A DNA stretch of 9,553 nt, taken from positions 1 through 9,553 of the forward strand of contig JAABRC010000040.1 in the NCBI GenBank assembly GCA_011391115.1, in the 5' to 3' direction. This stretch comes from Candidatus Egaibacter danicus (GTDB taxonomy: Bacteria > Pseudomonadota > Gammaproteobacteria > Burkholderiales > Burkholderiaceae). Each line of letters opens with the position of its first letter. Position 1 is the first letter of the stretch. Shown here piece by piece: positions 1 to 9,553 of the stretch. The position numbers and the translations under genes are program-made. The notes under the pieces were generated by a model. It was not told where the DNA came from. It did not search any database and saw only the letters and a list, made by a program, of their open reading frames with translations.

Positions 1-301
1 GAAACGCGTTGACTATATTGCCCGCCACATCGCTGCTGTAGGCGAAGCGATGGACAAGGGTGTGCGCATGGCCGGCTACATGGTGTGGAGCCTCATGGAT
101 AACTTTGAATGGGCCTCGGGCTACGAAAAGCGGTTCGGCATCGTGCATGTGGACTACGAAACGCAAGAACGCACGCTAAAAGACAGTGCGCTCTGGTATA
201 GGGAGTTTTTGCGCCAGCAAAAGGCAGCTCGGGCACGTGGCGGTGCCTCAACTCTGACCGAACACGCTGCTGAGCCAGTTGCCGCGCTGACCTGTTCTTG
301 A
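1..301 (+). CDS. Beta-glucosidase, GH1 family (3' end only)
   Basis: This is the last 99 codons of a GH1 beta-glucosidase; the frame is open to the left edge and ends in TGA at 299-301. The visible part carries the C-terminal GH1 signature WSLMDNFEWASGY, whose Glu-Trp pair lines the glucose-binding -1 subsite, followed by KRFGIVHVDY and a TLKDS..WYREF stretch, all typical of the end of the family's (beta/alpha)8 barrel. The two catalytic glutamates (NEP and TENG motifs) lie upstream, outside the window. GH1 enzymes of this kind hydrolyse cellobiose, laminaribiose and short beta-glucans to glucose, usually in the cytoplasm. The tail after the barrel is short, Ala-rich and probably not structured. 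It precedes the GH16 gene by 148 bases on the same strand and is probably the final step of the same pathway. Family assignment is firm; substrate is inferred from the neighbours. Confidence 0.93.
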   Translation, partial: KRVDYIARHIAAVGEAMDKGVRMAGYMVWSLMDNFEWASGYEKRFGIVHVDYETQERTLKDSALWYREFLRQQKAARARGGASTLTEHAAEPVAALTCS

Positions 302-449: not shown

Positions 450-1361
450 ATGACGTTTCCGAACAAAGATGTCTGGGCACTGGTCTGGTCCGATGAGTTT
501 GAAGGCGATCGCATTGATCCCTGCAAGTGGGACTTTGAAATGGGTAATGGCTTTTTCGATTACCGCACGCACACCTGGATCGCAGGGTGGGGCAACGAAG
601 AGCTTCAGTACTACACCGACCGACCAACGAATTCTTCGGTTAAGGACAGTGTTTTGACGATCCGTGCTGTCAAAGAATCCCTGCACGGTTGCGGTTACAC
701 CTCAGCTCGCTTGAGAACGCGCAAGCAAGACGGTTCGCCTTTGTTCGTGAAGAGGTACGGCCGGTTTGAATTTCGGGCCAAAGTGCCATACGGCAAGGGG
801 CTGTGGCCCGCTTTGTGGATGCTGCCGCAGGACAATGCATACGGCGGTTGGGCTGCCTCCGGTGAAATCGACGTGATGGAAATTGCCGGCGAAAAACCGC
901 ACGAAGTGCTCAATAGCATCCATTTCGGCTCATCTGGCAGCGAAGGGCGGTCGCTGATCACGCATGTGCATCCGCTGCCCAATGGCAGCACCGTAGCCGA
1001 CTGGCACACCTACACAGTGGAGTGGGAGCCGGGTGAAATCCGCTTCTATGTGGACGATGTGCATACGCGCACCTACGACCACTGGTGGAGCTGCAGCGTT
1101 ATCCACGACGGTACCGGGGTGGTGGCGCGCCGCGCCAAAGACCTCAACCCGTGGCCAGCGCCTTTTGACCAGCCCTTCTACCTAGTGATGAACGTCGCTG
1201 TGGGTGGCAATTTCCCCGGTGTCCCCAGCCCTGAGACTCTCTTCCCGGCTGAGTTGATGGTGGACTATGTGCGCGTGTACGACAAGGTTGGCGGATACGG
1301 CGAAACAAGGCCGATTGGAAAAGCGCGGTTTCCTTGGCAAAAAGAAAAGAAAAAGCCCTGA
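450..1361 (+). CDS. Endo-beta-1,3-glucanase (laminarinase), GH16 family
   Basis: A 303-residue GH16 enzyme that hydrolyses internal beta-1,3 (or mixed beta-1,3/1,4) glucosidic bonds with retention. The catalytic motif EIDVMEIAG has the spacing of the laminarinase branch, with nucleophile E139, assisting D141 and acid/base E144. Other family marks are LVWSDEF near residue 11, GWGNEELQYYT at 47-56, YGRFEFRAKVPYGKGLWPALWML at 103-125, and the late strands around PFYLVMNVAVGGNFPG. The catalytic domain fills almost the whole chain, with no carbohydrate-binding module. From the start chosen for its perfect AGGAGG there is no signal peptide, so the enzyme appears cytoplasmic, which is unusual for a laminarinase and suggests it acts on imported oligosaccharides. 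The upstream ATG at 402 would give a short leader without positive charges, not a convincing export signal. The C-terminus is a basic tail (KEKKKP) from an A-rich stretch. The next gene starts 40 bases downstream. Confidence 0.93.
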   Translation: MTFPNKDVWALVWSDEFEGDRIDPCKWDFEMGNGFFDYRTHTWIAGWGNEELQYYTDRPTNSSVKDSVLTIRAVKESLHGCGYTSARLRTRKQDGSPLFVKRYGRFEFRAKVPYGKGLWPALWMLPQDNAYGGWAASGEIDVMEIAGEKPHEVLNSIHFGSSGSEGRSLITHVHPLPNGSTVADWHTYTVEWEPGEIRFYVDDVHTRTYDHWWSCSVIHDGTGVVARRAKDLNPWPAPFDQPFYLVMNVAVGGNFPGVPSPETLFPAELMVDYVRVYDKVGGYGETRPIGKARFPWQKEKKKP

Positions 1362-1401: not shown

Positions 1402-2391
1402 ATGTCCAAACCCCATCCTGACTTCGCGACTGCCACTGCCGCCGCCAAGGGCATTCGCGAAGGTGATGTCGGCGAAGAGGCGCGCGCGGACCTTGTCCCT
1501 TGCGTTGTCCCCAGTGCCACCGCCTGGACGAGCAGTTGTCCCACGGTTTGGACCACCGCTTCGCGCAACGAATTGACCGTTGCGTTTGGCGCCGCGTTAC
1601 AGCGCGGCGTTCACGGCCTGTGTTTCAGCCCTTATATGGAAGGCCAGCAGCCGGGCACGCAGGTTGGCGCGGCACAGATCCGCGAGCGCTTGAAGATTCT
1701 GCAGCCGCATACCGGTTGGGTGCGGACGTTCTCCTGCACCGACGGCCACGAACAGACCCCGCAACTGGCGCACGAGCTTGGAATGAAAACGCTGGTGGGT
1801 GCCTGGTTGGGCACCGACGCCGATATCAACGAGCGTGAGCTGCAGGGCGTGATTGAACTCGCACGTGCTGGTCACGCGGACATCGTGGCCGTGGGCAACG
1901 AGGTGCTGCTGCGCGAGGATATGAGCGAGGACGCATTGCTCGCCAGCATACAGCGCGTCAAGGAAGCCCTGCCTGGCGTACCGGTGGGCTACGTTGATGC
2001 TTATTACCTGTTCGAGAAGCATCCGCGTATCACCGCTGCTTGCGATGTCGTGATGACCAACTGTTACCCCTTCTGGGAAGGCTGCCCACGCGAGCAGGCG
2101 CTGGCCTACATGCAGACCATGGTGCAGCGCACGCGCGCCGCCGCGCCAGGCAAGCGCGTGCTGATCAGCGAGACCGGCTGGCCGGACCAGGGCAGCCCGT
2201 TCCATGGTTCTGTGCCTTCTCGGGAAGGAGCCATGCAGTACTTTGTCGATTGCTGCCGCTGGGCCGAAGAAGACGGGATCGAAATTTTCTACTTTGCCGC
2301 CTTTGATGAGGCCTGGAAGGTGGGTGCTGAAGGCGATGTCGGCGCTTACTGGGGCCTATGGGACAAACACGGCGTCCTCAAGTTCGGATAA
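1402..2391 (+). CDS. GH17 glucan hydrolase, short type (copy 1)
   Basis: A 329-residue protein with a GH17 (beta/alpha)8-barrel domain, acting on beta-1,3-glucans as a hydrolase or possibly a transglycosylase. The acid/base is E167 in AVGNEVLLRE and the nucleophile E257 in LISETGWP; the late motif FDEAWK and WGLWDK close the barrel. It is roughly half identical by eye to the GH17 domain after the transporter (4939-5778), indicating duplication. The barrel begins at about residue 72 (GLCFSPY); the preceding 70 residues, rich in Ala and Thr, have no counterpart in that copy and no hydrophobic signal peptide. The ATG at 1402 follows a weak AAAGAG site; a TTG at 1573 would give a protein closer in length to the other copy, but it has no good ribosome site. 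Expected in the cytoplasm. It follows GH16 by 40 bases and is separated from the next GH17 gene by 4 bases. Confidence 0.88.
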   Translation: MSKPHPDFATATAAAKGIREGDVGEEARADLVPCVVPSATAWTSSCPTVWTTASRNELTVAFGAALQRGVHGLCFSPYMEGQQPGTQVGAAQIRERLKILQPHTGWVRTFSCTDGHEQTPQLAHELGMKTLVGAWLGTDADINERELQGVIELARAGHADIVAVGNEVLLREDMSEDALLASIQRVKEALPGVPVGYVDAYYLFEKHPRITAACDVVMTNCYPFWEGCPREQALAYMQTMVQRTRAAAPGKRVLISETGWPDQGSPFHGSVPSREGAMQYFVDCCRWAEEDGIEIFYFAAFDEAWKVGAEGDVGAYWGLWDKHGVLKFG

Positions 2392-2395
2392 CCCT

Positions 2396-3343
2396 ATGAC
2401 CCTGTTGAACCTGCCCTCGGGCAATGCCATCTGCTACAGCGGCTACCGCGACGGCCAAAACCCTGGCGAGCAAACCTATCCTTCACTCGAAGAGATCCGC
2501 GAAGACCTGGGCATTCTGCGAAAGCATTGGACACTGCTGCGCCTATACGACTGCAGCCCTCACGCCGAGCGCGTGCTGCAGGTCATTGCCGAAGATCGGC
2601 TGCCCTTTCAGGTGATGCTGGGCGCTTACCTGGGTGCGGAGATGAACAACTTTGGCTGCCCCTGGGGCGCCACCTTCACAGAAGAGCAGCTAGAGGCGAT
2701 CCGGGCCGAGAACGGCGCCGAACTTGAGCGTCTGGTGGCCCTGGCGAACCGCTATCCGGATATCGTGTTTTCGGTGGCCGTGGGCAACGAGGCCACGGTC
2801 GACTGGACCGACCACTACGTGCCGGTGCCACGCATGATCGAATACGTGCGCCGCGTCAAGGCGGCTGTGCGCCAGCCCGTCACCTTCTGCGAGAACTATG
2901 TGCCCTGGCAGCACAAGCTGCGTGATCTGGTGACTGAACTTGACTTCATCTCGCTGCACACCTACCCAGTTTGGGAATACAAGCACATCCACGAAGCGCT
3001 GGACTACACCAAAGACAACGTTCACAGCGTGGCTCGCCTCTATCCCGACAAGCCGCTGGTCATCACCGAGGCCGGTTGGTGCACCAACAGCAACGGTCGG
3101 GGCATGCACGCCGAACACGCAGTTCAGGAGTTGCAGGCTGTCTATTACCAGGACCTGATGGACTGGACACGCGCCGAAGGGCTGCTGTGTTTCGTTTTCG
3201 AGGCCTTTGACGAAACCTGGAAGGGATCGCCCGACCCGCTGGAGCCCGAGAAACACTGGGGCCTGTTCACCGTGGATCGCAAACCCAAGCTGGTGATGCA
3301 GACCTTGTATCCCGAGTTGATGAACCCGCCACTAGCAGGCTGA
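2396..3343 (+). CDS. GH17 glucan hydrolase, second type (copy 2)
   Basis: A 315-residue GH17 enzyme made of the catalytic domain alone. The acid/base is E132 in AVGNEATVDW and the nucleophile E225 in VITEAGW; FDETWK near residue 271 and HWGLFTVDRKPK near 287 complete the family pattern. The sequence is closer to the exported lipoprotein GH17 on the opposite strand (shared LLRLYD/LIRLFD, VGNEATV/VGNETMV, GLFxVxRxPxxVxQxLYP) than to copy 1 next to it, so it is a different GH17 subgroup. No signal peptide is seen, so it should be cytoplasmic. The ATG lies only 4 bases after the stop of copy 1 and has no strong ribosome site of its own, which points to translational coupling. The ORF could be extended upstream, but that would overlap copy 1. 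Likely role: degradation of imported laminari-oligosaccharides; endo- or exo-action cannot be told from sequence. Confidence 0.9.
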   Translation: MTLLNLPSGNAICYSGYRDGQNPGEQTYPSLEEIREDLGILRKHWTLLRLYDCSPHAERVLQVIAEDRLPFQVMLGAYLGAEMNNFGCPWGATFTEEQLEAIRAENGAELERLVALANRYPDIVFSVAVGNEATVDWTDHYVPVPRMIEYVRRVKAAVRQPVTFCENYVPWQHKLRDLVTELDFISLHTYPVWEYKHIHEALDYTKDNVHSVARLYPDKPLVITEAGWCTNSNGRGMHAEHAVQELQAVYYQDLMDWTRAEGLLCFVFEAFDETWKGSPDPLEPEKHWGLFTVDRKPKLVMQTLYPELMNPPLAG

Positions 3344-3384: not shown

Positions 3385-5778
3385 GTGCCTGCCGAGAACC
3401 CCACCACTGGAAAGCTCAACGTGACCCAAGCAGCAGTTATTACCGCGCACAAAATCCCTTTCGGGCAGAAGATAGCCTTTGGGCTTGGCATGCTGGCGAA
3501 TCAGATGTTCCCAGCGGCGCTGGGCATCTTCATGGTGGTGCTGGTGCAAGACCTGGGATTTCCCGCCTGGATGTGGGGCATCCTGTTCTTCCTGCCGCGC
3601 GTCTTCGATTCCGTCACCGACCCGATCATGGGGTTCATCTCTGACAACACCCGCTCCACCTGGGGTCGACGCAAGCAGTACGTGTTTATCGGCGCCATCG
3701 TGATGGGCCTCTCGTTCATCGCGATGTGGCAGTTGCACCGCGAGAACGGCATCACTTACAACTTCATCTATTTCCTCCTCTGGTCGCTGGTCTTCTACAG
3801 CGGTCTTACCCTGTTCAGCATTCCTTACGTGGCCATGGGCTACGAGATGAGCGACGACTTTCACGAGCGCACCAGCATCATGGCAGTGGCGCAGTGGATC
3901 GGACAATGGGCATGGGTGATTGCGCCTTGGTTCTGGGTCGTGATGTACGACAAGTCGTGGTTCGAAAACGCCGACACGGCCACGCGCACCCTGTCGGTGG
4001 GTGTGGGCGTGACCTGCATGCTGCTCGCCATGGTGCCGGCGCTTTTCCTGCCCAGCCGATCGACCAAGGACGATACCCACCTGATACCGCTGAACTGGGC
4101 GAACTTTGGCGGCGGCATGCGGGAGATCCTTAGCGGATTCAAAGATGCCTTGCGCATCAAGCCCTTCCGCAAGCTGTGCTTCTCCACCTTCCTGATCTTC
4201 AACGCCTTCAACACCGTGGCGGCGTTCTCATTCTTCATCGTTGTCTACCACCTCTTCAACGGAAGCACGGCGGACGCCTGGATCTGGCCGACGCTGTTTG
4301 GCAGCGTTGGCGCGTTGGTCACCACGTTCGCGGTCATTCCCACTGTGGCCTGGATGTCACGCAAGATGGGCAAGAAGAACGCCTTCATGCTTTCGCAAGG
4401 CATCTCCATCATTGGCTACGTGTTGCTTTGGTTGCTCATGATCCCGGGCAAACCCTATATGTTCATGTTCGCCTTGCCCTTTTTCTCGTTCGGCATCGGC
4501 GGGTTGTTCACTTTAATGATGTCCATGACGGCAGACGTCTGCGACCTAGACGAACTGGCCACCGGCAAACGCCGCGAAGGCATCTTCGGCGCCATCTACT
4601 GGTGGATGGTCAAGTTTGGTTTTGCGATCGCCGGCCTGCTCAGCGGCGCCATCATGAGCTGGGTCGCATTCTCGCCGGGTGCTGCCGTGCAGCCCGAAGG
4701 GGCGGTGGACGGGCTGCGCTTGTTCTATTCCGGCGTGCCCATTCTTGGGACACTGTTGGCCATGTGGATCATGCGTGACTACGATCTTGATGAGGCTCGT
4801 GCCACCGAGGTGCACGCCGAGTTGGCACGACGCAAGCTGCGCGCTGCCCCCACATCGTCCCGGGGCTCTGGTGCGCGGCCTTGGCTGGAAGAGCACGGCC
4901 ATCACCTTCCAGCCAGCCTGGGTGCACCCCTGACCACCATGACGCTCGCTGACATCAGCCGTCTTCATGCCGAGCAGATGAACACCGGGATGTATGGCCT
5001 TTGCTTCAGCGCCTACGCCGAGGGTCAGCGGGAAGGCGACCAACTGCAGGAGGCGAATGTCCGTCGGCGCATGGAGTTGATTGCGCCCCACACGCGCTGG
5101 GTGCGATCCTTTGCCTGCACCGAAGGCCACGAGCTCATTCCCGGTCTGGCCCATGCCAACGGATTGAAGGCCATGGTGGGTGCGTGGATCAGTCACGACC
5201 GTGAGCGCAACGAGCGCGAAATTGCAGCGCTGGTGGCACTGGCCCGGCAAGGCCTGGTCGACGTCGCTGTGGTGGGCAATGAAGTGCTGCTGCGCGAGGA
5301 ACTGCCCGAGGCCGATCTGCTGGCCTACATCCGTCGGGTCAGGGCTGCCTTGCCTGAAAGTGTGCCCGTGGGTTGCGTTGACGCTTACTACCAGTTCCTG
5401 GAACGACCTGCGCTGGTGGCAGCCTGCGACGTGCTGCTGCCCAATTGCTACCCCTTCTGGGAAGGCGTTGACATTGACATGGCCCCTCAGTACCTGCGCC
5501 GCATGGTCGGCCTGGTGCAAGCCGTCGGGGGTGACAAGCGCGTGATCGTCACGGAAACCGGTTGGCCCGGCAACGGGCAGGCGGTGGCTTCTGCCGTGCC
5601 GTCCGCCGGCAACGCCATGCGCTACTTTGTCGAGGTCCAGCAGTGGGCTCGCAGCGAAGGGGTGAAGCTGTTCTACTTCGCCTCGTTCGACGAACCTTGG
5701 AAGTTGCACCAGGAAGGTGATCTGGGCGCGCAGTGGGGCCTGTGGGACAAGAACGAACGCCGCAAGTACGCCGTCTGA
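3385..5778 (+). CDS. GPH-family sugar symporter continuous with a C-terminal GH17 domain
   Basis: One open frame of 797 codons joining two normally separate proteins. Residues about 25-465 form a complete GPH (glycoside-pentoside-hexuronide:cation) symporter of the MFS superfamily: twelve hydrophobic segments can be picked out, and after the second lies the GPH signature DSVTDPIMGFISDNTRS-TWGRRK (75-97). Residues 519-797 form a full GH17 domain with acid/base E633 (VGNEVLLREE) and nucleophile E724 (VTETGWP). A 50-residue polar linker joins them. With twelve helices the C-terminus, hence the GH17 domain, would face the cytoplasm. The start is uncertain: GTG at 3385, or GTG at 3421 behind a GGAAAG, which fits the usual GPH N-terminus. 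The linker has better codon use in another frame that stops at 4933 just before an ATG at 4939, so this may be two genes fused by an indel, real or artefactual. Likely role: uptake of beta-glucan oligosaccharides. Confidence 0.82.
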   Translation: MPAENPTTGKLNVTQAAVITAHKIPFGQKIAFGLGMLANQMFPAALGIFMVVLVQDLGFPAWMWGILFFLPRVFDSVTDPIMGFISDNTRSTWGRRKQYVFIGAIVMGLSFIAMWQLHRENGITYNFIYFLLWSLVFYSGLTLFSIPYVAMGYEMSDDFHERTSIMAVAQWIGQWAWVIAPWFWVVMYDKSWFENADTATRTLSVGVGVTCMLLAMVPALFLPSRSTKDDTHLIPLNWANFGGGMREILSGFKDALRIKPFRKLCFSTFLIFNAFNTVAAFSFFIVVYHLFNGSTADAWIWPTLFGSVGALVTTFAVIPTVAWMSRKMGKKNAFMLSQGISIIGYVLLWLLMIPGKPYMFMFALPFFSFGIGGLFTLMMSMTADVCDLDELATGKRREGIFGAIYWWMVKFGFAIAGLLSGAIMSWVAFSPGAAVQPEGAVDGLRLFYSGVPILGTLLAMWIMRDYDLDEARATEVHAELARRKLRAAPTSSRGSGARPWLEEHGHHLPASLGAPLTTMTLADISRLHAEQMNTGMYGLCFSAYAEGQREGDQLQEANVRRRMELIAPHTRWVRSFACTEGHELIPGLAHANGLKAMVGAWISHDRERNEREIAALVALARQGLVDVAVVGNEVLLREELPEADLLAYIRRVRAALPESVPVGCVDAYYQFLERPALVAACDVLLPNCYPFWEGVDIDMAPQYLRRMVGLVQAVGGDKRVIVTETGWPGNGQAVASAVPSAGNAMRYFVEVQQWARSEGVKLFYFASFDEPWKLHQEGDLGAQWGLWDKNERRKYAV
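4939..5778 (+). other. GH17 domain of the transporter frame, or a separate GH17 gene (copy 3)
   Basis: This is the part of the long frame that would be an independent 279-residue GH17 enzyme if translation began at the in-frame ATG at 4939. From that ATG the protein starts MTLADISRLHAEQ and enters the barrel at GLCFSAY, about 19 residues later, a natural length for a catalytic-domain-only GH17. It is the closest relative in the window to copy 1 at 1402. A TGA in another frame ends at 4933, leaving a 5-base gap, close to the 4-base gap between copies 1 and 2. There is no strong ribosome site before 4939. I cannot decide between fusion and separate gene from sequence alone. Confidence 0.5.
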
Positions 5779-5860: not shown

Positions 5861-7213
5861 TCAGCACCCGGTCCAAGGCAGCAAGCAGGTGGCAATGCCG
5901 CGTGCGGGCAACATCAGATACGCCGACTGTTGAGGTGAGCGCACCACCAGCTCAAACGGCTGCTCAGTGCGGTTCATGGCAACCAGCGCCACGCCACCAT
6001 CTGGGTTCAAAAAAGCGGTGGCTTCAACCGCTTGCCGGCTGGCCGCGCACAAAATTCGCTGGGCGCCGGGTGCGATAAACCGGGTGAAATGACCGATGTA
6101 GAAATACGAACTTTGCGGGTGGACTGTATCGTGTACCGCATCCACCAGCATGGGGGCACTGCAGAAATTGCCCACGTGGTTGGGTCCACCCTGGTTGTCG
6201 AGCAGCAGGTTCCAATCTATCCAACCCACCGTCCAGCGGTTCAGATCGTTGATCATGGAGCGCGCATAGCGCTCGCCCAGCGCCCACGAACCGTGGTGCG
6301 GTCCACCCTCCTGGCAACCCTCGGTGAACAGAAGTTGCTTGTCGGGCCAAGCGTCGTGCACCAGTTGAACATGGTCAAAATGGTCTTCACCATACCAGTG
6401 GAAACCAGTGCCCCAGACGTACTTGGCGGCTTCTGGGTCGGCATAGACGGTGCCCGCTCGTTCAACCATCAGGTCGCGGTTGTGGTCCCAGATGACGATG
6501 CGCACATGGCCCAGCCCGGCCGCTGAGAGTGCCGGGCCCAGGTGGTCGCGCACAAAATCCCGTTCCTCCTCGGCGGTGTAGATGCAGGAGTCCCAGCGCT
6601 GTGTGGCTGCAGGCTCGTTCTGCACCGAAACGCCCCACACCGGGACACCGTGCGCCGCATAGGCATGAATGAATTTCACGTAGCAGCGGGCCCATGCATC
6701 CCGGTGTTCGGGCAGCAGCTTGCCACCGTGGTTCATCTGACCGTTGGTCTTCATCCAGGCCGGTGGGCTCCACGGTGACACCAGCAGCTTGATGGGGCGC
6801 TTGGCCACCCGCTGGGCCGCCTGGATGAACGGCAGCAGAGCCTGCTCGTCGCGTGCGATGCTGAAATGCTCCAGCGCCACGTCGCCCGGCGTATCAGCAT
6901 GGGCGTAATTGCCCAGGGAAAAGTCGCAACTGTTCATGTGTACCCTGCACAGCGTGTAGCCATGGCCTTCGGCCTTATCAAAGTAGCCCGTCAAGACCGC
7001 TTCTTGCTGCACCGGGCACAGAGCCTGCCACTGCACGGCCGCTGCTTCGGTGAAGGCAGCACCGAAACCTTCCATCGTTTGGAAGCGCCGCGTCGGATCA
7101 AGCCATATGGAGGGCAGGTGTTCGCAAGTCTGCTGGGGCCGGGTGGTGGCCTGTTCGCTCAGGCGTTGGCCGCTGTCGCGGGCAGTGATGAAGGTGCGCA
7201 TGGTGTGGGTCAT
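5861..7213 (-). CDS. GH30 beta-glucanase/beta-glucosidase, probably acting on beta-1,6 linkages
   Basis: A 450-residue GH30 enzyme from the ATG at 7213. Family marks run in order: FQTMEGFGAAFTEAAA near residue 44, GYTLCRVHMNSCDFSLGNYA near 85, LLVSPWSPPAWMKTNGQM near 143, acid/base E200 in SVQNEP, nucleophile E298 in LFTEGC, and a C-terminal beta-sandwich with EATAFLNPDGGVALVAMNR. The family includes glucosylceramidases and beta-1,6-glucanases or exo-beta-1,6-glucosidases; next to GH16, GH17 and GH1 genes, removal of beta-1,6 side branches of laminarin is the likely job. There is no signal peptide, so it should be cytoplasmic. The start is open: ATG 7213 or ATG 7201 both suit the conserved FITARDSG N-terminus but lack a ribosome site; a TTG at 7258 would make the first residues out of the terminator hairpin and is unlikely. 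It lies downstream of the lipoprotein gene on the same strand, past a terminator. Confidence 0.9.
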   Translation of the reverse strand: MTHTMRTFITARDSGQRLSEQATTRPQQTCEHLPSIWLDPTRRFQTMEGFGAAFTEAAAVQWQALCPVQQEAVLTGYFDKAEGHGYTLCRVHMNSCDFSLGNYAHADTPGDVALEHFSIARDEQALLPFIQAAQRVAKRPIKLLVSPWSPPAWMKTNGQMNHGGKLLPEHRDAWARCYVKFIHAYAAHGVPVWGVSVQNEPAATQRWDSCIYTAEEERDFVRDHLGPALSAAGLGHVRIVIWDHNRDLMVERAGTVYADPEAAKYVWGTGFHWYGEDHFDHVQLVHDAWPDKQLLFTEGCQEGGPHHGSWALGERYARSMINDLNRWTVGWIDWNLLLDNQGGPNHVGNFCSAPMLVDAVHDTVHPQSSYFYIGHFTRFIAPGAQRILCAASRQAVEATAFLNPDGGVALVAMNRTEQPFELVVRSPQQSAYLMLPARGIATCLLPWTGC

Positions 7214-7274: not shown

Positions 7275-9038
7275 TTAGCGGGACCAGTGAATCCCGTCCA
7301 CGGTCAATGGGGTCCTAATGTTCGAATTCAACGCTTTGCCGGTGAAGCTGTAGCGGTCTGCGATGTAGAACGGATTCAGCACCAGACGGAAATCGAGTTT
7401 GGCGTTCTTGGCCTTGAAAGCGCTCAGCGGTACGGACACCTGGCACCAGGTACCGGTATTGCAGAAACCATACTCTCCGTTGCCAATCTGGACAAAAGCC
7501 TCTTGTGCATTGCCATCGACGTCCAGTGTGGAAAGGCCAAACTCAATTTTTCCAGGGTAGGTGGTGTTGATCCATGCATTCACAGCGCCAAAAGCCGAGA
7601 GGTTTTGGGTCGCGCGGGCGACCTGTGGGTTGTACAGCAAGCCCCATCCGTAGTTGGCCGGGGCGGGCGTGATGCGCATGCTCACGGCGCCGTCGCCCGG
7701 CGCTGCAGCAATGGTGGTGTCGGCCAGGTTTCGGGGAGCCGTGAACCCGTCAAACGCATCGAGGTTGTAGCCTGCAACGGGGGTCGCACCTGGAGCATCT
7801 GAGTACAGGGTGAGCTGATTGCCAGCGAAAGCATCATTGATGACCGGCGGGATGAAGTACACCGCGTCGGCGTCGGTCAGGTTGGCGTTTTCTGGTTGAA
7901 GGCTGGGGTAGAGGTTCTGGACCACATAGCGAGGTTGCCGCTGCACGTTGAACAGACCCCAGCCATCGTCACTTTGCTTCCAAGGCTCGTCAAAGGCTTC
8001 AAAGTAAAAAATGTTGGCCGGTCCGGTACCGCTCAGGCGGCTCTCCTGGCGCCACTCTTCCAGGCGTTGGAAATACATCTTCTGGTTCACCGGGTTGGCA
8101 CGGAAGGCCTGGTCACCGGTTATGCGGGCTTTCCAGCCGGTTTCGCCGAACACGATGGGCATCTTGTCAAGTCCCATGCTGTCCAGTGCATCACGGGTGT
8201 CCTGGTATTGCTCTTTTAGTTCGACGATGCTGGCATCCATCATGGCTTTGGCCCGTGCAGGTCCCTCAGGCACGTTCAGCTGCTTCCAGTCCCAATAAAA
8301 GTCGCTGTCCGGATATTCCGTGTCGATGTTGGGGTAGGCGTGAATGGCCGCAAAGTCGATCTGGTCGGTGATGATTTTGGGAATTGGGTTGGAATAAAAC
8401 AGAAAGTTGTCGTCGGTCGTGACTGGCTGTGTTACACGGTCACGGACGTACTTGATGTACACCGCCATGTCAGCGGGGTCAATGGGCACGATGGACCAGT
8501 TCACCATGGTCTCGTTGCCCACGCTCACCGCCAAAATGATGTCTTTGTATTTTGCATTTGTGGCCAACGCCACAGCACGGGCCAGTTCCATCCCGTTGGC
8601 GGTTTTGATCTCTTCCTTCACGTAGGGGTTGTCCACGTTTTTGAAGGTGTTCACGTAAGCGCCTAGCTGCACCTTCATGTCCAGGTTGTTGTCAGCGATA
8701 ACGTCCAGCACCAGTTTGGCAACCTTGTCCGAGCTGTCGAACAGGCGGATCAGGCGAAAGTTGCCTTGTACCAGGAGGTCGAGGTCTTCTTTCACCATGG
8801 TCATCGTGATGGTTTCGGTGTCCCGGCTGCTGCTCCGAAAAGGGCTGTAGGCCACGGCCTGGCGGGCCAGGTATTCGGCAGGCAGAGCCCGCGGGCTGAC
8901 CACTGACACTGGCGCAGGTGAGGTGGACCCACTGGTATCGCTGCCGGTTGTCACGCCGCCACCGCCACAGGCGGCAATGAGTGACGCCGTGAGCACAGCC
9001 GCCGCGGCCCGTGCGAGTTGTTTGAATGAAATTGACAT
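7275..9038 (-). CDS. Exported GH17 glucanase lipoprotein with C-terminal beta-sandwich domain
   Basis: A 587-residue lipoprotein. Residues 1-23 are a signal peptide (MSISFKQLARAAAAVLTASL) ending in the lipobox LIAAC, with C24 as the lipidated residue; Gly at +2 favours the outer membrane. A Gly/Ser/Thr-rich tether follows. The GH17 barrel spans about 58-380, with acid/base E176 (SVGNETMVNW), nucleophile E299 (VFGETGW), FDEPWK and a late LFNVQRQPRYVVQNLYPSL. Residues about 395-587 look like a galactose-binding-type beta-sandwich (WCQVSVPLSAF, LDFRLVLNPF, TVDGIHW), probably carbohydrate binding, although I cannot name a CBM family. Likely role: first cuts in beta-1,3-glucan at the cell surface. 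The ATG at 9038 is chosen because it begins the signal peptide and follows ACAGGA; longer in-frame starts overlap the preceding barrel gene. It begins 49 bases after that gene and probably shares its transcript. Confidence 0.92.
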   Translation of the reverse strand: MSISFKQLARAAAAVLTASLIAACGGGGVTTGSDTSGSTSPAPVSVVSPRALPAEYLARQAVAYSPFRSSSRDTETITMTMVKEDLDLLVQGNFRLIRLFDSSDKVAKLVLDVIADNNLDMKVQLGAYVNTFKNVDNPYVKEEIKTANGMELARAVALATNAKYKDIILAVSVGNETMVNWSIVPIDPADMAVYIKYVRDRVTQPVTTDDNFLFYSNPIPKIITDQIDFAAIHAYPNIDTEYPDSDFYWDWKQLNVPEGPARAKAMMDASIVELKEQYQDTRDALDSMGLDKMPIVFGETGWKARITGDQAFRANPVNQKMYFQRLEEWRQESRLSGTGPANIFYFEAFDEPWKQSDDGWGLFNVQRQPRYVVQNLYPSLQPENANLTDADAVYFIPPVINDAFAGNQLTLYSDAPGATPVAGYNLDAFDGFTAPRNLADTTIAAAPGDGAVSMRITPAPANYGWGLLYNPQVARATQNLSAFGAVNAWINTTYPGKIEFGLSTLDVDGNAQEAFVQIGNGEYGFCNTGTWCQVSVPLSAFKAKNAKLDFRLVLNPFYIADRYSFTGKALNSNIRTPLTVDGIHWSR

Positions 9039-9087: not shown

Positions 9088-9553
9088 TCAGAACGTGTAT
9101 TTGGCACCAACGCCAAACCAGTTTCCGGACTTGGTGGTTCGCGAGTCGATGCCATTGATCGTCGCGTTGGAAGGCATCGACAGGGGTGCCAAGCCTTTGT
9201 TGCGGTAGTGAACCATCCCGCCAAAAACAGAAAATTCCAACCCATGCCCGTAAGCGTAGGTGGCCTGTAAGGTGTTGATGAGTGCGCTATTGCTTTGCCC
9301 ACGTTCGCTTGGGTTGGCGGTGCTGGCCTTGCCCATGTAGGCCATGCCGGTGGCAAAGGTCCACTTGTCCATGCGGTAGCGTGCACCCAGTGAAAGATTG
9401 GTCGAGGTGGCTGAGTAGCCAGGGTTTGGCACGCCGTTGAGTGAGCCAAACCAATCTACGTTGAATGGGAAGTTGAACTGTGCAGGCGAACCGGGCAGGG
9501 CAACTACCGCATAGGCGCCACTCCAGCGGTTGCGGCGCACCGCGCCCGAGATT
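9088..9553 (-). CDS. Outer-membrane beta-barrel protein, porin-like (3' end only)
   Basis: The last 154 codons of a protein whose frame runs off the right edge; TGA at 9088-9090. The sequence alternates polar and hydrophobic residues in strand-length stretches (TNLSLGARYRM, WTFATGMAYMG, NTLQATYAYGHGLEFSVFGGMVHY, GNWFGVGAKYTF) and ends in a C-terminal Phe, the signal recognised by the BAM machinery in many outer-membrane barrels. It resembles general porins of betaproteobacteria in layout, but I cannot name its family with confidence. It precedes the GH17 lipoprotein by 49 bases on the same strand with no terminator between, so a role in passing beta-glucan oligosaccharides through the outer membrane is plausible but inferred. 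Confidence 0.75.
   Translation of the reverse strand, partial: ISGAVRRNRWSGAYAVVALPGSPAQFNFPFNVDWFGSLNGVPNPGYSATSTNLSLGARYRMDKWTFATGMAYMGKASTANPSERGQSNSALINTLQATYAYGHGLEFSVFGGMVHYRNKGLAPLSMPSNATINGIDSRTTKSGNWFGVGAKYTF

Follow-up and report, generated by a model that had tools for sequence, protein, structure and literature searches.

A 9,553-nucleotide stretch of Candidatus Egaibacter danicus (Burkholderiales, Burkholderiaceae; contig JAABRC010000040.1), hereafter the window, carries a gene whose product joins an N-terminal 12-helix transporter of the MFS_2 family to a C-terminal domain of glycoside hydrolase (GH) family 17. Positions 3385 to 5778 (+) form one uninterrupted frame, whose longest reading begins at a GTG and gives 797 amino acids (aa). 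Since most of the listed relatives measure 780-790 aa and the counterpart in the nearest related locus (L001) 785 aa, GTG 3421 is probably the true start rather than GTG 3385, and the residue numbers used here, which follow the 797-aa reading, are possibly 12 too high. The features of the window are collected in Table 1.

Table 1 Features of the window, in order of position
Feature	Position	Strand	Basis
GH1 beta-glucosidase gene, 3' end, cut by window edge	2..301	+	Pfam
GH16 glucanase, no obvious signal peptide	450..1361	+	Pfam
GH17a, free GH17, no obvious signal peptide, FUS2-type branch	1402..2391	+	Pfam, tree
GH17b, second free GH17, distant branch	2396..3343	+	Pfam; outgroup in trees
Transporter-GH17 fusion gene, likely start GTG 3421, 785 aa	3421..5778	+	Open frame; relatives ~785 aa
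12-helix MFS_2 (GPH-like) transporter, residues 26-463 (797-aa reading)	3460..4773	+	Pfam, model, Foldseek to MelB
Predicted cytoplasmic helix and linker, residues 467-520	4783..4944	+	pLDDT <50 at 488-494; dN/dS
GH17 domain, residues 521-797, acid/base E633, nucleophile E724	4945..5775	+	Pfam, alignment, Foldseek
GH30 (beta-1,6-glucanase-like)	5861..7213	-	Pfam
GH17 with lipoprotein-type signal, likely surface or periplasmic endo-enzyme	7275..9038	-	Pfam; lipobox by eye
Outer-membrane barrel protein, C-terminal part, cut by window edge	9088..9552	-	Sub-threshold Porin_4, OMP_b-brl

pLDDT, predicted local distance difference test; dN/dS, ratio of nonsynonymous to synonymous substitution rates.

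A transporter and a GH17 domain in one frame

The initial annotation had described a single frame holding a 12-segment transporter together with a full GH17 domain in which the two catalytic glutamates (E633 and E724) are present, and this was borne out by Pfam, AlphaFold2, Foldseek and alignment. For the transporter half, Pfam MFS_2 matched residues 32-470 with 223.3 bits (cut-off 27); the NCBIfam model 'gph' (TIGR00792) gave 178.8 bits against a cut-off of 231.35, so that 'MFS_2, GPH-like' is the safer name. A sequence search of the PDB matched residues 27-477 to the melibiose symporter MelB, and 12 long helices were modelled between residues 26 and 463. The best fold match was again MelB, with a template modelling (TM) score of 0.86 by target length and a sequence identity of 16-17%, although MelB is a single-function protein. 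D75 and D79, invariant in 63/63 sequences, align with the Asp pair of MelB, which we take to be the cation-site residues D55 and D59 of helix II, and by this analogy the transporter half would perform cation-coupled sugar transport.

For the other half, Pfam GH17 was found at residues 713-797 (45.2 bits, cut-off 28.2), and the PDB sequence search extended the match to residues 529-781, against the fungal GH17 transferase RmBgt17A (4WTP). The best fold match was also RmBgt17A (4WTR; TM score 0.88, sequence identity 27-28%), which differs in being a single-function protein. In all 81 aligned fused proteins (31 from Burkholderiales and 50 from Bacteroidota) E633, E724, W692 and E693 were invariant. 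Three acceptor-site residues have been named for RmBgt17A and for MlGH17B of Muricauda lutaonensis, and W692 and E693 match two of them. The Tyr that completes the Tyr, Trp and Glu set of these transferases is replaced by L636 in the window. Leu occupies this position in 31/31 Burkholderiales fusions, and the 50 Bacteroidota fusions show Leu in 30, Tyr, His and Met in 5 each, Gln in 3 and Phe in 2. Replacing the Tyr with Ala ends transfer in RmBgt17A, as cited in the available excerpts of PMC11005184, which also give Met at this position for FbGH17B, a published fusion from Formosa; the fusion of a Formosa metagenome-assembled genome (L076) likewise carries Met. The Leu favours, without proving, hydrolysis for the window enzyme, as reported for FbGH17B. 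Among free GH17a proteins the position holds Tyr in 41/46 Bacteroidota rows and Leu in 25/25 Burkholderiales rows; judged by this residue, GH17a of Burkholderiales may likewise be no transferase.

To place the fusion among relatives, proteins of 0.55-1.75 times the length of the window protein were searched with its GH17 part. As a result, 1257 matches were obtained from 7994 scored proteins, and both domains were present in 120/120 among the matches listed, where the names Hydrogenophaga, Rubrivivax and Piscinibacter occur. A genome scan confirmed 535 places, of which the best 80, picked as best full matches, comprised 30 titled Burkholderiales or Betaproteobacteria and 50 titled Bacteroidota; both domains lay in a single frame at 80/80 of them. 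The domain order that the initial annotation had proposed to look for elsewhere therefore does recur, in frame, in the genomes of relatives. Across the linker (residues 467-520), comparison of the window with nine of the 30 Burkholderiales loci gave dN/dS values of 0.12-0.35 in 8/9 cases, with dS saturated in the ninth. Values so far below 1 indicate that the linker is translated in the same frame and is under purifying selection. Taken together, these sequence comparisons identify the fusion as a genuine single protein and not an artefact.

In an AlphaFold2 model built from 63 aligned sequences (pLDDT 85.1; predicted TM score, pTM, 0.61) a helix spanned residues 470-487, residues 488-494 were of low confidence, and an alpha/beta domain began near residue 521. 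The linker is variable, and the stretch from Y466 to the barrel of this domain keeps a length of 70-80 residues in the 63 sequences. For example, Lys and Arg together number 8 in the loop 222-268 and 4 in the loop 323-334, and none occurs in 288-303 or 430-443. As loops expected on the cytoplasmic side are richer in these residues, the C-terminal part would lie inside and the GH17 domain, following the last membrane helix, is predicted to be cytoplasmic, in agreement with the cytoplasmic glucanase on an inner-membrane transporter that had been suggested initially.

Known relatives, descent and a second fusion family

A protein of this kind has been described. According to the available excerpts of PMC6246565 (Unfried et al. 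2018), FORMB_24740 (FbGH17B, AOR29491.1) of Formosa sp. Hel1_33_131 is a fusion of a major facilitator superfamily (MFS) transporter with GH17, whose GH17 part was assayed as an exo-beta-1,3-glucosidase; such a fusion is common among marine Flavobacteriia, coupled hydrolysis and uptake were suggested, and to those authors' knowledge no fusion of that kind between a transporter and a carbohydrate-active enzyme had been described for other bacteria. The initial annotation, which knew of no characterised GPH-GH17 fusion, is corrected by this protein. The idea of the fusion is thus already published, and the window protein is a further member in another phylum. Like it, FbGH17B has an N-terminal 12-helix MFS part and a C-terminal GH17 domain in one protein and belongs to a laminarin-type cluster with GH16, GH17 and GH30; the exo-beta-1,3-glucosidase activity reported for Formosa may, by analogy, also belong to the window GH17 part. 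The two differ in host (Bacteroidota for FbGH17B, Pseudomonadota for the window), in the residue at the transferase-Tyr position (Met and Leu, respectively) and in surroundings: in contrast to that of FbGH17B, the window-type cluster has no SusC/SusD among the genes typed in L001, and it contains a LacI regulator and ATP-binding cassette (ABC) importer genes (L001), GH1 and a barrel protein.

MlGH17B (WIW39500) is compared with FbGH17B, to which it is 53% identical, in the excerpts of PMC11005184 and PMC13188888. It resembles the window protein in its cytoplasmic-type GH17, its adjoining MFS transporter gene and its laminarin cluster, but is a free-standing transglycosylase of 295 aa with the acceptor-site Tyr. 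In the Bacteroidota loci the next gene downstream of the fusion is usually a free GH17a, with 46 such rows from 50 loci. Given this arrangement, its length and its Tyr, MlGH17B, as judged from its description, may correspond to the free GH17a rather than to the fused domain. PMC13188888, in the part available, pairs MlGH17B with the fused FbGH17B; its length and active-site Tyr resemble those of the Bacteroidota free GH17a. Beyond Unfried et al. and the Muricauda comparisons, no further report of a transporter-GH17 fusion was found in the literature searched, which included parts of PMC11345257 and PMC8371827 and had most subscription journals and preprints outside its coverage.

The window-type fusion, here termed FUS1, was sparse in even genome samples. 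It occurred only in the centre genome (G001) among 300 genomes from the order of L001, and in seven of 349 genomes from its family, G001 included (76-89% identical). Of 299 genomes from the Flavobacteriaceae, the family of L041, 98 had some match at 1e-60, and in 16 a single stop-free frame matched over the full span (G002 and G186 opened, the rest taken from the table). In G178 (opened), G073 and G128 (table only), the match continued past the transporter into GH17 with no stop. Eight Flavobacteriaceae rows that were listed as 'full-length' but contained stops were rejected as fusions, being separate genes with a GH17 closer to GH17a, and a 'triple fusion' of 1,025-1,045 aa was discarded because its apparently open frame ran through stops between separate genes.

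A careful phylogenetic tree of GH17 domains (73 rows) placed those of FUS1 in one clade of 31 rows (support 99/98). Within it the seven Burkholderiales rows formed a single clade (100/100) that adjoined four Saprospiraceae, Lewinella and Phaeodactylibacter rows (99/96). Another, quick GH17 tree supported the single FUS1 clade (94), whereas an earlier quick tree (84 rows) differed in part, in that free GH17a, together with six of the Bacteroidota fusions, fell inside the fused group. L076, which stands in for FbGH17B, fell in the GH17 clade of the window. In the transporter tree, 31 Burkholderiales rows (100) grouped with eight Bacteroidota rows (99), five of which were titled Saprospiraceae, Lewinella-like or Phaeodactylibacter, and the transporters of L031-L036 were 78-81% identical to that of the window across phyla. 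With this identity and these trees, passage of FUS1 between Bacteroidota and Burkholderiales is the simplest account. We infer a direction from Bacteroidota to Burkholderiales, which depends on a weak root, the tree roots being set on very long outgroup branches. A swap of either the transporter or the domain is seen at L095:3312-5891 (+), where a GH17 of the FUS1 clade is joined to a transporter (40% identical) from a different subfamily, the one at 40-45% identity, which carries extra sequence.

Two of the 349 genomes carried another fusion, matching the window protein at just 32-33% over nearly its full length; in these loci (L108 and L109) GH17 is borne by a different transporter, 23-24% identical to that of the window. 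For this second family, termed FUS2, a transporter query gave 5510 matches from 7999 scored proteins, with GH17 also present in 103/120 among the matches listed, and the few carriers named there were Pseudomonadota. FUS2 proteins (L108, L109, L121 and P0122-P0241) share with the window the domain order, a length of about 800 aa and clusters with GH16 and GH17b, to which L121 adds a GH17 lipoprotein and a barrel. They differ in the transporter, 23-26% identical to that of the window in seven compared and nearer to MelB by sequence (E = 3e-42 for P0147, 3e-13 for the window), and in a GH17 from the GH17a branch. All 13 FUS2 domains in the tree lay outside the FUS1 clade, nine near or among free Burkholderiales GH17a and four on a branch of their own. 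A single origin of all fusions was rejected by the approximately unbiased (AU) test (p-AU 4e-8), on rows chosen after the earlier quick trees. The grouping of all FUS2 GH17 domains in one clade was rejected as well (AU p 0.012), so FUS2 may itself have acquired or shed its transporter on more than one occasion.

In the 349-genome sample FUS2 was present in three genomes (G821, G833 and G752) and FUS1 in seven without overlap, numbers too few to test exclusion. An even sample of 398 genomes from across the Pseudomonadota yielded no FUS2; its two matches were to the free GH17a in G001 and to a transporter (44%) in G1281 that stands unfused. A 755-codon frame in G696 was rejected as FUS2: it is a free GH17a whose frame stays open upstream, and no match to the FUS2 transporter was obtained there. 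No report of FUS2 was found in the literature searched, within the coverage given above.

Of seven FUS2 proteins compared, five have a GH17 part that shares 72-77% identity with the GH17a of the window, and the other two share 59% and 49% with it; for the fused GH17 domain of the window, identity to these seven is 45-55%. The gene order of L121 is barrel, GH17 lipoprotein, GH16, FUS2 and GH17b; that of the window is GH16, GH17a, GH17b and FUS1, with GH30, the GH17 lipoprotein and the barrel on the opposite strand. GH17a thus occupies the place of the FUS2 of L121, which ends in nearly the same enzyme. On the pattern of this one locus, either FUS2 would be a transporter joined to GH17a, or GH17a would be the remnant of a FUS2 gene. 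In L108 and L109, FUS2 lies downstream of free GH17a and GH17b, that is, at the place of FUS1 in the window.

Gene neighbourhood

The fused gene lies in a cluster of beta-1,3-glucan enzymes, of the type around FbGH17B, in the window, in the loci of its relatives and in L001. GH16, GH17a, GH17b and GH30 have no export signal obvious by eye. GH30 scored 269.8 against the NCBIfam endo-1,6-beta-glucanase model, below its cut-off of 700. The GH17 lipoprotein gave 27.9 bits with Pfam GH17, just under the cut-off of 28.2, its signal and lipobox were read by eye, and its final ~200 residues have no Pfam match. The counterpart of the barrel in L001 (15648-17003 (-), 452 aa) had no Pfam match at 0.001. 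A barrel standing beside a GH17 lipoprotein could possibly be a porin for beta-glucan oligosaccharides, of an undescribed family.

The L001 cluster adds a LacI regulator, parts of an ABC sugar importer, GH81 and a second GH16. Its importer genes (binding protein, two permeases and ATPase; L001:1301-4458 and 5933-6985) share the cluster with the fused symporter, so that a single substrate may be served by importers of two types. One cluster can also hold two GPH-like transporters, as at L035:4168-5610 and L101:3845-5275, where a second, unfused one (~45% identical) is located in the cluster of the fusion.

Proposed role and its alternatives

One frame, two complete domains, in-frame conservation and the make-up of the cluster are observed features of the locus. 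We consider it likely that the window protein is a fusion of the FbGH17B kind in a beta-1,3-glucan (laminarin-like) use cluster of a Hydrogenophaga-like member of the Burkholderiales, and coupled uptake and cleavage would be its likeliest role. The exported GH17 lipoprotein would cut glucan polymer outside the cell, and short beta-1,3-oligosaccharides would cross the outer membrane, perhaps via the neighbouring barrel. The MelB-like part would then import them through the inner membrane with a cation, and the GH17 domain tethered at its cytoplasmic end would make the first cut, probably by hydrolysis, before soluble GH16, GH17a, GH17b, GH30 and GH1 completed the breakdown. The tether would keep free oligosaccharide low at the transporter exit. 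The substrate, the cation coupling, the compartments, the order of steps and the benefit of the tether are suggested by analogy with FbGH17B and with the protein families concerned.

Several points weigh against this proposal. The support for the window protein comes from sequence, model and neighbours, from which the steps of activity, transport and localisation are deduced; FbGH17B's own sequence (AOR29491.1) entered the comparisons only via L076; the pTM of 0.61 leaves the relative placing of the two domains loose in the model; and the ABC importer genes of L001 could carry the same sugar as the fusion. Moreover, the transporter occurs without its partner, at 80-82% identity in three of the 349 genomes and at 60-75% identity in 29/299 Flavobacteriaceae genomes (23 opened and 6 from the table alone, with incomplete rows G041 and G169 uncounted), where unfused transporters outnumber fused ones. 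At the three transporter-only Burkholderiales loci (L105-L107) no GH17 of the fused type was found in frames of at least 90 codons; a free GH17a is located nearby in L105 and L106, and none within 16 kb in L107. Judged from both groups of genomes, the fusion is not obligatory for the transporter. The initial annotation had taken two separate genes in all related genomes as grounds for giving up the fusion, and the outcome was mixed, with seven fused and three transporter-only genomes in the family of L001 and a mostly unfused state in Flavobacteriaceae.

Alternatively, the fusion could be real and the tether without special effect, enzymes of the same pathway having been joined by chance, separable and without channelling. 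This reading draws on the three transporter-only genomes and on eight Flavobacteriaceae genomes in which the transporter gene is directly followed by a separate GH17 gene. It also draws on the transporter tree (87 rows), where 14 unfused members of the window subfamily were scattered among fused ones, with nine changes, at least five of them forced by well-supported branches; on this tree an old fusion has undergone repeated loss or regain. However, the architecture recurs in FUS2, whose transporter family and GH17 branch are both different, and again on a third transporter subfamily in L095, and the stretch from Y466 to the barrel is held at a near-constant length, so we regard a chance tether as possible while leaning against it. 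For the broader view that glucan feeders hung GH17 on the cytoplasmic end of an importer at least two times, with different transporter families and GH17 branches, and that physical coupling was selected, the balance is even.

Instead of hydrolysing imported oligosaccharides, the GH17 domain might rebuild or branch them by transglycosylation, like MlGH17B and RmBgt17A. The solved structure that matches it best is a beta-1,3-glucanosyltransferase of GH17, and W692 and E693 are retained in every fused row, but the required Tyr is Leu in the window and in all the Burkholderiales fusions, and this activity is considered unlikely. An error of sequencing or assembly, or a merged reading of two genes, for which the separate genes in several relatives might speak, is extremely improbable and is ruled out for the family by recurrence in independent genomes and metagenomes, the single-frame loci and the linker dN/dS.

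To our knowledge, a symporter bearing its own hydrolase is known in print just from Formosa and its marine relatives; this unusual solution is now found in Burkholderiales, apparently by inter-phylum transfer. Algae store a very large amount of carbon as beta-1,3-glucans such as laminarin. If physical coupling was indeed selected, joining uptake to the first cut would be a favoured trait of glucan feeders, and the repeated losses in Flavobacteriaceae would point to settings in which coupling does not pay. With a second fusion family of separate origin and with fused, unfused and re-fused relatives of one transporter, these proteins provide a comparative system for tethering and uptake in which the coupling idea becomes testable.

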